The position numbers and the translations under genes were made by a program. DNA of 59,455 nucleotides from an uncultured Pelagibacteraceae bacterium (lineage in GTDB: Bacteria > Pseudomonadota > Alphaproteobacteria > Pelagibacterales > Pelagibacteraceae). The stretch is taken from NCBI GenBank assembly GCA_902530635.1, contig CACABC010000006.1:1-59455 (forward strand). The letters run 5' to 3'. Below, in pieces: positions 8,954-19,691 of this stretch. The notes under the pieces were generated by a model. It was given only the letters and a program-made list of their open reading frames with translations. It was not told the DNA's origin and ran no database searches. Position 1 is the first letter of the stretch; each line of letters opens with the position of its first letter.

Positions 8954-8982
8954 TTGATAAAATTCATTTATTAATCTATATA
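8954..8982 (+). promoter_or_regulatory. Candidate sigma-70 promoter for tRNA-Pro and the following operon
   Basis: TTGATA (8954-8959) and TATATA (8977-8982) are separated by exactly 17 bases. The -10 box ends 10 bases before the tRNA 5' end. No other promoter space exists between the tRNA and the operon behind it, so this may drive both. Confidence 0.55.
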
Positions 8983-8992
8983 AATAACCTTT

Positions 8993-9069
8993 CGGGGCGT
9001 AGCGCAGCCTGGTAGCGCATCTGGTTTGGGACCAGAGGGTCGCAGGTTCAAATCCTGCCGCCCCGACCA
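8993..9069 (+). tRNA. tRNA-Pro (anticodon UGG)
   Basis: A 77-base cloverleaf. The acceptor stem CGGGGCG pairs with CGCCCCG near the 3' end. The anticodon arm is TCTGG-TTTGGGA-CCAGA, giving anticodon TGG. The T arm has GGTTCAAATCC. The 3' CCA is encoded. The discriminator is A. The next gene's start codon follows after only four bases (TTTT). Confidence 0.97.
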
Positions 9070-9073
9070 TTTT

Positions 9074-17498: not shown

Positions 17499-17783
17499 AT
17501 GAAACGAGCTAAGATTTTTATACCTAGTAAAACAGCAATGCAATCGGGCAGGGGAAAGACAAAAAGATGGGTTCTTGCATTCGATACTAAGAATACAAAA
17601 ACTAACCCATTGATGGGTTGGGAATCCGGAGAAGACACTATGAGTGAAGTTATTTTAAATTTTACATCAAAAGAAAAAGCAATTGTATATGCTAAAAAAA
17701 ATAAAATTATCTATCAAGTTATAGAGCCAAAAAAATCTGAATTTATTATTAAATCATACAGCGATAATTTTTTGAAAGACTGA
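17499..17783 (+). CDS. NADH dehydrogenase complex I accessory subunit, NDUFS4 type
   Basis: Small soluble accessory subunit of respiratory complex I that is kept in alphaproteobacteria and mitochondria. The 94-residue protein has the family pattern: AKIFIPSKTAMQSGRGKTKRW, PLMGWESGEDT, then FTSKEKAIVYAKKN. It is encoded one base after dmdA and one base before the SbmA-like gene, away from the nuo genes, which are not in the window. Why it sits in this operon is not evident. Confidence 0.88.
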   Translation: MKRAKIFIPSKTAMQSGRGKTKRWVLAFDTKNTKTNPLMGWESGEDTMSEVILNFTSKEKAIVYAKKNKIIYQVIEPKKSEFIIKSYSDNFLKD

Positions 17784-17784
17784 T

Positions 17785-18792
17785 ATGTGGAGAAGTTTTT
17801 TTACTGACAGAAAATGGATGTTTTGGTGCTATGGAGGCGGTTCACTTATTTTAGTCTTAATAGTTTTTCAAACATGGTTGTCTGTTCAATTTAACACTTG
17901 GTATGGATCTTTTTATGATTTGTTGCAAAAACCACCAGAAACAGGTGGGCTCGAACAATTTTACGAAAGATTAACCTTTTTTCTTTATTTAGCTATTCCA
18001 TACGTAACTACCATTTCATTTACAAATTGGTTTACCAGGATGTGGACTTTTAGATGGAGAGAGTCAATTACTTTTTCATATATGCCTTATTGGCGTAATG
18101 TTGACGTAAAGGTTGAAGGGGCATCTCAGAGAATCCAAGAGGACTGTAGAGATTTTGCAAACATAGTTGAAAATATAGGTCTTGATATTGTTAGAGCTTT
18201 AATGACTCTTATAGCATTTTTACCAATTTTGTGGTCTCTTTCTGAAAATGTTGTTGCGCCATATTTAGAAAATGTATCAGGTTCATTGGTTTGGGTAGCA
18301 CTATTAGTTAGTATAGGAGGGCTTACTATAAGTTGGTTTGTTGGAATCAAATTACCTGGATTAGAGTATAATAATCAAAAAGCTGAAGCCGCATTTAGAA
18401 AAGAATTAGTTTATGGTGAAGATGATAGAGCAAGATATGCTCTAGCACCATCAGTTTTAAAATTGTTTACTGGTATAAAATTTAATTACCATAGACTTTT
18501 TTTGCATTACGGATATTTTGATTTATGGTCAATATTATATAGACAAATATTTGTGATAGTACCCTTTTTAATAATGGGACCAGGTTTATTCACTGGGGCC
18601 TATACTTTGGGAATTATGATGAGAGCAGTAAATGCTTTTGGTGAAATTAAAGATGCGTTTAACGTCTTTTTATATAATTGGGTACAAATAAACAGGTTAA
18701 GATCTATCCATAAACGTCTAAGTGAATTTGAAAAAGCCATTGGTTTTAATAAGCCCTTGAGAAAAGCTAAAAAATCCGATGTAAGAGTTTAA
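17785..18792 (+). CDS. SbmA/BacA-like inner-membrane transporter
   Basis: Resembles SbmA/BacA, proton-driven peptide importers shaped like ABC membrane domains but without an ATPase. Family features are FNTWYGSFYDLLQ after the first helix, FRWRESITFSYMPYWR and the conserved segment EGASQRIQEDCRDFA. Several membrane helices follow (IGLDIVRALMTLIAF, ILYRQIFVIVPFLIM). At 335 residues it is shorter than E. coli SbmA (about 400), mainly at the N-terminus. Separated by one base from the NDUFS4-type gene and overlapping the next gene by one base (TAATG). Substrate unknown. Confidence 0.82.
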   Translation: MWRSFFTDRKWMFWCYGGGSLILVLIVFQTWLSVQFNTWYGSFYDLLQKPPETGGLEQFYERLTFFLYLAIPYVTTISFTNWFTRMWTFRWRESITFSYMPYWRNVDVKVEGASQRIQEDCRDFANIVENIGLDIVRALMTLIAFLPILWSLSENVVAPYLENVSGSLVWVALLVSIGGLTISWFVGIKLPGLEYNNQKAEAAFRKELVYGEDDRARYALAPSVLKLFTGIKFNYHRLFLHYGYFDLWSILYRQIFVIVPFLIMGPGLFTGAYTLGIMMRAVNAFGEIKDAFNVFLYNWVQINRLRSIHKRLSEFEKAIGFNKPLRKAKKSDVRV

Positions 18793-19691
18793 TGGAGCTC
18801 TACCTTAAACTTATAGATGTTTTATTCCCTGTTTTTTTTATTATTGGAATTGGTTACTACCTTGGTAAAAAAGATTCTAAATTTGATACTAAATTTATAA
18901 CTAATTTTGCTGGAACTATCGGTACTCCAGCAATGATATTCTATACTATTACAACAACAGGTGTAACCTTAGAAATTTTTACAGAGTACTTTGTATATGC
19001 TTTGATTTTATTATCAGCATTTGCGTTGATCGGATTCTTCTTTTTATTATTTTTAAAAAAAGATCCTATTACCGAACTTCCCCCGATGTTTTTACCCAAT
19101 ACTGGCAACATGGGTGTACCTATTTGTTTATTTGCTTATGGTACTGCCGGTCTCGGTGTAGCATCAGCAATAGCATCTGTTATTATTCTATTTCACTTTA
19201 CTATTGGAGTTTTATTAGCTAGTAAGAAATTTTCATTTATCATTCTAATTAAAAATGGTCCAATTTATGGAATTATAGCTTCAATTTTGTTTCTTTATTT
19301 TGATTGGGACGTTCCTGGATATTTAGAGAACACGACATTTTTACTGACTTATACAACAATATTTTTAGTTCTTATGGCACTAGGTGTTGCTTTAACAAGA
19401 TTGAAGGTTGTCTCATGGAAACATGCAACTATATTGGGAGCTGTTAGGGTAATTTTGGGCCCCATAATTGGTTTTACTCTGATTAATTATTTAGAGCTTA
19501 GTGGGTTTATGGCAGGTGTTCTGTTCATACAATCAGCGATGCCAAGTGCAGTTTTAACGTACCTTGTTGGTTCCATGTATTCAAAGAAGAGGGCAGTAGA
19601 TAATATTGCTAGTGTAATTGTCACTTCAACGCTAATGTCTTTCGTGACAATTCCTGTTGTTGTTTATCTATCTTTACGATTCTTTAATTAA
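18792..19691 (+). CDS. AEC family transporter (auxin efflux carrier-like permease)
   Basis: Integral membrane carrier with about ten helices. The N-terminal half has VFFIIGIGYYLGKK, then the family's LPNTGNMGVPICLFAYG (NxGN(F/M)G motif). The C-terminal half has AVRVILGPIIGF and QSAMPSAVLTYLVG. At 299 residues it is standard length. Bacterial members carry dicarboxylates and similar anions, but no substrate can be assigned here. Last gene of the plus-strand operon; a long gene-free stretch follows. Confidence 0.9.
   Translation: MELYLKLIDVLFPVFFIIGIGYYLGKKDSKFDTKFITNFAGTIGTPAMIFYTITTTGVTLEIFTEYFVYALILLSAFALIGFFFLLFLKKDPITELPPMFLPNTGNMGVPICLFAYGTAGLGVASAIASVIILFHFTIGVLLASKKFSFIILIKNGPIYGIIASILFLYFDWDVPGYLENTTFLLTYTTIFLVLMALGVALTRLKVVSWKHATILGAVRVILGPIIGFTLINYLELSGFMAGVLFIQSAMPSAVLTYLVGSMYSKKRAVDNIASVIVTSTLMSFVTIPVVVYLSLRFFN

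Follow-up and report, generated by a model that had tools for sequence, protein, structure and literature searches.

A proline tRNA gene and the nine genes behind it

The window analysed here, by which we mean the whole stretch of 59,455 bases of contig CACABC010000006.1 from an uncultured Pelagibacteraceae bacterium (genome 86% complete), contains a single transfer RNA (tRNA) gene, a tRNA-Pro with anticodon TGG and an encoded CCA (ARAGORN), followed on the same strand by nine open reading frames (ORFs; 9074–19691) that include dmdA, the gene for the dimethylsulfoniopropionate (DMSP) demethylase (Table 1). It is the only tRNA-Pro among the 29 resolved tRNAs of this genome. The initial annotation placed the ATG of the first, fadJ-like gene four bases (TTTT) after the CCA and described the genes of the series as overlapping or at most 4 bp apart; the sequence agrees on both counts, with successive gaps of 0, 2, -4, -8, 4, 1, 1 and -1 nucleotides (nt), and the start codon lies 7 nt from the tRNA acceptor stem. 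The accompanying view that no later start is available is borne out by homologues in genomes without a tRNA at this place, which begin at the same residue; translation from TTG 9026, within the tRNA, was rejected because these homologues use the same ATG. A pattern scan found no terminator-like site between the tRNA and the first gene and placed a candidate terminator 3′ of the operon, with 13 matches over the window against 6.2 expected (standard deviation 2.5). The TTTT spacer was itself rejected as a terminator, as the spacers of relatives are not always T-runs (AAATCAT in G054, TTATAAAC in G046; genomes and loci are given by our G and L handles).

The label of a DMSP-degradation operon, also proposed initially, holds in part. 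Only dmdA passes a curated DMSP model, and the label rests on this gene, whose product matches PDB 3tfh over its full length. The dmdB-like protein scores 344 bits on the curated 3-(methylthio)propionyl-CoA ligase model, below the cut-off of 822, and passes a general acyl-CoA synthetase model; PDB 6ihk, a DmdB, ranks second among its structure matches. The length and C-terminal domain of the dmdC-like protein fit DmdC, and the gene is called dmdC-like and not proven DmdC because PDB 8png (543 bits) outscores 6ijc (500 bits), the latter a DmdC. The first gene product joins a 3-hydroxyacyl-CoA dehydrogenase domain to an enoyl-CoA hydratase domain, and Pfam identified no separate DmdD-type crotonase among the nine operon genes. 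The Gfo/Idh/MocA oxidoreductase is found at its window place in some relatives only, and the last three genes (ndus4, sbmA and memT) are, judged by gene order across genomes, older residents and not DMSP genes.

Some variation in this gene set was observed. In G012 (L122 8114–9346), OsmC and enoyl-CoA hydratase genes lie between the dmdB-like gene and the hydrolase, with gaps of similar size in G022, G025, G027, G029 and G054 (sequence there unread); the G012 enoyl-CoA hydratase could stand in for DmdD. G031 carries a methylenetetrahydrofolate-reductase-like gene between dmdC and dmdB, and the dmdA of G018 (L115 11240–12338) matches as two pieces in different frames, likely reflecting a frameshift or sequencing error.

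Table 1 Features of the tRNA-Pro locus, in window coordinates.
Feature	Position	Strand	Basis
Putative tRNA-Pro promoter, TTGATA-17 nt-TATATA	8954–8959, 8977–8982	+	conserved place; ends 10 nt before tRNA
tRNA-Pro(UGG), encoded CCA	8993–9069	+	ARAGORN; RF00005 search
TTTT spacer	9070–9073	+	sequence; ATG at 9074 directly after
fadJ-like 3-hydroxyacyl-CoA dehydrogenase / enoyl-CoA hydratase, 740 amino acids	9074–11296	+	Pfam PF02737, PF00725, ECH
dmdC-like acyl-CoA dehydrogenase, 586 amino acids	11297–13057	+	Pfam; PDB matches
dmdB-like acyl-CoA synthetase, 542 amino acids	13060–14688	+	NCBIfam PRK08162, 861 bits, above cut-off
alpha/beta hydrolase (abh)	14685–15464	+	Pfam PF00561
Gfo/Idh/MocA oxidoreductase	15457–16383	+	Pfam PF01408
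dmdA, DMSP demethylase	16388–17497	+	NCBIfam PRK12486, 502 bits, cut-off 410
ndus4, complex I NDUFS4-type subunit	17499–17783	+	Pfam PF04800
SbmA/BacA-type transporter (sbmA)	17785–18792	+	Pfam PF05992
Mem_trans (auxin efflux carrier type) transporter (memT)	18792–19691	+	Pfam PF03547
Candidate terminator 3′ of operon	20085–20108	+	pattern scan only

Conservation and history of the locus

Searching 149 genomes with the first protein gave matches in 115 at an E value of 0.001 or better, many of them weak. Gene starts were examined at 46 loci from 46 genomes, 45 of them readable (L020 ends at a contig edge); the distant L043 and L044 (46% and 39% identity) were entered as lacking the tRNA, while partial genes in G024 and G060 and weaker first-protein matches were left unread. 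The initial annotation had suggested looking for tRNA-Pro beside this gene in other SAR11 genomes, and a tRNA-Pro lies 3–15 nt upstream of the fadJ-like gene in 20 of the 45 readable loci, comprising all 19 within the genus (the window's genome and 18 relatives) and one of 26 outside it (G054). Two further genomes of the genus (G002 and G024) hold the gene in part only and ten gave no match to it; in these ten the best tRNA match has an E value of 5e-8 or weaker, or is missing, compared with 4e-35 to 2e-33 in the 19, which fits an assembly gap across gene and tRNA. A contig search returned one named SAR11 contig, Pelagibacteraceae AG-325-C21 (71% identity), which carries no tRNA, plus five distant records. 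Among the titles and abstract starts of the matches listed, none concerned tRNA-Pro together with SAR11 DMSP genes, most subscription journals lying outside the search, and no title among the papers listed in one literature search announced a SAR11 transcription-start map.

In the G025 group (L121 3024–3224) a tRNA-Arg(UCU) lies 47 nt 5′ of tRNA-Pro, where two tRNAs would head the operon. In G030 (95% complete; L125 6600–6720) dmdA stands directly behind a holB-like gene (named by eye), and metG, tRNA-Pro and the remaining block were not found in the assembly; as metG and the only tRNA-Pro should be essential, this junction is likely a chimeric join.

In other genera of the family, tRNA-Pro is followed directly by ndus4–sbmA, with a gap of 3–12 nt in 17 of the 18 loci read and of 51 nt in the remaining one (G080); coordinates indicate wider gaps in a few unread loci, e.g. 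36 nt in G073. Because these genera have ndus4–sbmA directly after the same tRNA, the DMSP block (9074–17497) is read, from gene order, as an insertion exactly between tRNA-Pro and ndus4, the first of its old partners. The flanks are in matching order: genomes with the block (the window, G018 and G011) run nhaA (reverse strand), tRNA-Pro, fadJ, dmdC, dmdB, abh, dmdA, ndus4, sbmA, memT and a recombinase-like gene (int), and G062, without the block, runs nhaA (reverse strand), tRNA-Pro, ndus4, sbmA, memT and int. The short form is probably older than the form with the block, as tRNA-Pro, ndus4 and tRNA-Arg also stand in a row in two of six genomes of the same class (G146 and G145). The stretches read in G031 and G043 carry the fadJ–dmdC–dmdB–abh–dmdA block without the tRNA, and G005 has the block at tRNA-Pro without dmdA. 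In the fadJ tree, G005 groups with G031 (98/97; G031 flagged as a long branch) and with G043, not with its own genus, suggesting more than one swap or insertion of the block.

Site-specific recombination at the tRNA 3′ end, with the DMSP block arriving as a mobile island, was also considered. The insertion point is exactly the tRNA 3′ end, G049 has two tRNA-Pro 3′ halves between tRNA and ndus4, and the recombinase-like gene begins at 20567, all of which would suit such an island. However, the tRNA end is not repeated elsewhere in the window (up to 3 mismatches), only 1 nt separates the right end of the block from ndus4, G062 and G045 lack the block yet carry the recombinase-like gene, and Pfam found no integrase in the insert. 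This explanation was rejected given the missing repeat and the independence of the recombinase-like gene from the block, and we consider it improbable.

Further rearrangement was noted around the block. The tyrosine-recombinase-like gene (20567–21544; named by eye) is kept near this position whether or not the DMSP block is present, and tRNA genes are described at the flanks of a SAR11 hypervariable region in PMC2217521. The dmdB-like gene has 88–90% identity to several distant genomes, other genera included (G031 and G043), and 73% to the close relatives G018 and G011, pointing to gene exchange inside the operon. By the same kind of comparison sbmA is a second exchanged allele, with 93–96% identity to G030 and G007 and 65–67% to the remaining compared genomes of the genus, among them close relatives. 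In G003 (L116) ndus4–sbmA–memT and the recombinase-like gene are inverted, with ndus4 about 9 kb behind dmdA and glycosyltransferase-like genes (by eye) between dmdA and the inverted group.

Transcription and processing of the joint transcript

The initial annotation regarded the TTGATA-17-TATATA pair before the tRNA as the only visible promoter; its presence and conserved place stand, and it scores 9/12, with pairs in the tRNA or at its end reaching 8/12. Promoter-like matches are about as frequent in the window as in shuffled sequence (78 versus 81.5 expected), making a lone match uninformative, and it is conserved place, not score, that on comparison of loci sets the upstream promoter apart. 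A TTG hexamer separated by 17 nt from a TA hexamer that ends 9–14 nt before tRNA-Pro was found at 15 of the 20 block-carrying loci and at the corresponding place in 13 of the 16 that lack the block (28/36 overall), against a background of 45 in 16,970 window positions; the pattern was defined after viewing the sequences, and the loci are related by descent. The 16 loci comprise the ndus4-first loci among the best 30 tRNA matches plus L128, with L183 (51 nt) and L185 (12 nt) left out. Judged from this distribution, the tRNA promoter is the older element, kept in arrangements with and without the block.

These observations are best explained by constitutive promoter capture, which we consider likely. 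The promoter of tRNA-Pro would originally also have driven ndus4–sbmA behind the tRNA; the acyl-CoA/DMSP demethylation block would have landed exactly between tRNA-Pro and ndus4, and the tRNA promoter would since have driven tRNA-Pro and nine protein genes as a single transcript. Comparison across genomes establishes the insertion, its precision, the promoter in both arrangements and the constant tight spacing. The single transcript proposed in the initial annotation is well supported by the same comparison, with an older promoter kept, no terminator-like site and no convincing -10 element in the tRNA, and the DMSP block most likely shares the tRNA transcript and is most likely expressed constitutively.

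If the tRNA were instead transcribed alone and the DMSP message came from a promoter of its own, within or immediately after the tRNA, or from several in the operon, two 8/12 matches located in the tRNA or at its end (TTGGGA-16-TCAAAT and TTCAAA-17-TTTTAT) would be available, in AT-rich DNA full of promoter-like sites. Nevertheless, TCAAAT, the best -10 inside the tRNA (4/6), has no A at its second position and belongs to the usual T-loop sequence of a tRNA, the TTTTAT pair would start transcription within the gene, the -10 of a leaderless start at 9074 would have to fall in GC-rich acceptor sequence, and the pattern scan shows no terminator-like site between tRNA and gene. As the scan gave no convincing -10, a promoter inside the tRNA was judged unlikely, and the alternative as a whole is given a small chance.

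The initial annotation also tied DMSP use to tRNA synthesis. Regulation by growth rate or by maturation, exerted via the synthesis or processing of tRNA-Pro, would be in keeping with one promoter, the sole tRNA-Pro found in the genome and a start codon 7 nt from the acceptor stem, but the same promoter is found before the tRNA at loci with unrelated genes behind it. This points to constitutive capture and leaves the claim of regulation unsupported. The dmdA gene is far from tRNA-Pro in G053; if this genome is that of HTCC1062, the HTCC1062 dmdA layout differs from that of the window. With that difference in layout, the constant levels of DmdA, DmdB and DmdC under sulfur limitation in HTCC1062, as given in PMC5069961, speak against regulation and lean towards constitutive expression. 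We regard regulation through the tRNA as unlikely.

Under promoter capture, RNase P would cut the tRNA 5′ end and an endonuclease of the RNase E/G family would cut at CCA/UUUU, releasing a 5′-UUUUAUG message whose entire leader would be the TTTT spacer. This message would be translated without a Shine–Dalgarno site, like most genes here, while the uncut transcript, with a folded tRNA 7 nt from the AUG, should initiate poorly; in the predicted fold of the joint RNA all four tRNA stems form beside the start codon. An RNase E/G family gene is present in the genome and all 29 resolved tRNAs have an encoded CCA. Mohanty and colleagues reportedly found in 2016 that RNase E makes the mature 3′ ends of the three Escherichia coli proline tRNAs, where the piece cut off is said to be a terminator. 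Given this analogy, the RNase E/G gene and the encoded CCA, a cut at CCA/UUUU is a fair guess and a nearly leaderless first messenger RNA (mRNA) after tRNA trimming is plausible. The single RNase Z match, the window gene at 6402, scored 29.8 bits against a cut-off of 293, which is missed also in 5 of 14 control genomes, so absence is not established.

No Shine–Dalgarno site precedes the fadJ-like start. The core tetramer occurs in 6 of 52 window genes against a shuffled mean of 4.3 (crude ORF calling), and a duplex energy of -4.5 or lower in 10 of 52 (without shuffled control); the missing site was rejected as a special sign, since the tetramer count is close to the shuffled mean and its absence is ordinary here. 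The 4-nt spacer is equally ordinary, as the median intergenic length of HTCC1062 is 3 nt according to PMC2704228.

Alternatively, tRNA maturation may destroy the first cistron, with RNase E cutting the AU-rich start region so that a transcript yields either mature tRNA or FadJ, not both. The start region UUUUAUGAAAAUAAAUAAAG is AU-rich and lies beside a tRNA, and the genome has the RNase E/G family gene; however, the start codon lies 3–15 nt from the tRNA in 20 of 20 tRNA loci, which would be costly, and such destruction seems doubtful to us.

Several points weigh against promoter capture and the processing proposed with it. The promoter match is missing in 5 of the 20 block-carrying loci, namely G029 and four genomes that have a tRNA-Arg upstream, and in 3 of the 16 without the block (G067, G053 and G045). 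The upstream pair is not set apart by score alone from the best pairs found within the tRNA or at its end, and in such AT-rich DNA internal promoters are not excludable by scanning. Within the same class, tRNA-Pro stands beside ndus4 in two of six genomes only: the two are 6 kb apart in G143 and on different contigs in G147, and no ndus4 match was found in G144 or G148. The predicted fold also pairs part of the start region, and a cut right after the CCA rests on the E. coli analogy.

Genes behind tRNAs and comparison with known systems

The first gene behind tRNA-Pro changes across lineages, being ndus4, fadJ, aguA-like, coaD, glycosyltransferase-like, photolyase-like or katG, and the gap is at most 15 nt at 41 of 50 distinct junctions (a set partly hand-chosen). 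In the sister family (G123 and G092) the slot between tRNA-Pro and ndus4 holds two agmatine genes, at a distance of 12 and 19 nt from the tRNA, with matches to agmatine deiminase (below the curated cut-off) and N-carbamoylputrescine amidase (above cut-off); in G103 a catalase-peroxidase, 99 nt behind tRNA-Pro, precedes the two. Elsewhere the tRNA is followed by a photolyase-like gene at 64 and 19 nt (G036 and G057; family search in G036), a glycosyltransferase-like gene at 9 nt (G050), a gene without family at 4 nt (G039) or coaD at 7 nt (G034, with ndus4 elsewhere). The two tRNA-Pro 3′ halves of G049 (positions 29–77; L175 3962–4010 and 6300–6348), which are found between the complete tRNA-Pro (L176 11837–11913) and ndus4, with some 20 kb from the tRNA to the closer half, are perhaps traces of tandem islands integrated at this tRNA.

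Close junctions extend to other tRNAs. A co-directional start codon (ORF of at least 60 amino acids) lies within 16 nt of 7 of 29 tRNAs both in the window's genome and in the complete genome G053; one tRNA-Pro was found in each. In the window's genome tRNA-His (G000:C1:94798–94871, L083) is followed after AAAA (4 nt) by hisS, above its curated cut-off, and hisS lies 5 nt behind tRNA-His in G053, so that this tRNA and its cognate synthetase are likely on one transcript. The gene that starts 7 nt after a tRNA-Gln has its best match in CCA tRNA nucleotidyltransferase (below cut-off), and tig lies 6 nt after tRNA-Leu(UAG) (L096, L100); these two tRNAs also have a close gene in G053.

Neutral compaction, in which the tight junction and read-through are by-products of streamlining without a function of their own, would agree with the short intergenic gaps of HTCC1062 mentioned above and with the 7 of 29 close starts in each of two genomes, although it leaves unexplained why different gene blocks stand behind this one tRNA across lineages. 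We put it at somewhat below an even chance, and it is largely compatible with promoter capture. A broader proposal, which we offer tentatively, is that SAR11 tRNA genes serve as operon heads, the tRNA supplying the promoter and its excision, as in mitochondria, fixing where a nearly leaderless mRNA begins; the tRNA-Pro slot would then be a standing expression site filled differently in each lineage, with tRNA maturation licensing translation of the first gene.

SAR11 bacteria are among the most numerous in the sea and are major consumers of DMSP. If their DMSP genes ride on a housekeeping tRNA promoter, this would explain expression without a dedicated regulator, and placement behind a tRNA would be a way for a streamlined genome to give new genes a promoter. 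The locus also makes tRNA punctuation testable in a free-living bacterium.

With tRNA and genes on one strand and no terminator-like site between them, the locus is most likely, as far as its sequence tells, a variant of the tRNA–mRNA operon. The E. coli thrU-tyrU-glyT-thrT-tufB unit is a tRNA–mRNA hybrid operon that combines tRNA and protein genes in one unit with a tRNA-type promoter, as this locus probably does, whereas here the spacer is 4 nt, nine genes include a catabolic block, and the protein part varies between lineages. Punctuation by tRNAs is known from mitochondrial transcripts, and tRNA excision would likewise set the 5′ end of a nearly leaderless mRNA here, but in a bacterium with many promoters, an encoded CCA and an RNase E/G family enzyme, and with processing that is putative. 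The E. coli proline tRNAs reportedly cut by RNase E share with this locus a proline tRNA, an encoded CCA and an RNase E/G family gene, although here the released piece would be an mRNA. As in tRNA genomic islands, the insertion lies beside a tRNA 3′ end; unlike them, it shows no attachment repeat in the window and no integrase in the insert, and the old partner genes are still in line. Finally, the acuR-acuI-dddL operon of Rhodobacter sphaeroides is described in PMC3017554 as a leaderless DMSP operon under AcuR control, transcribed from the AUG itself. Both are DMSP operons whose first gene has no Shine–Dalgarno site, the leader being absent there and probably nearly so here, but acuR-acuI-dddL has no tRNA, consists of other genes, is controlled by AcuR and starts exactly at the AUG.

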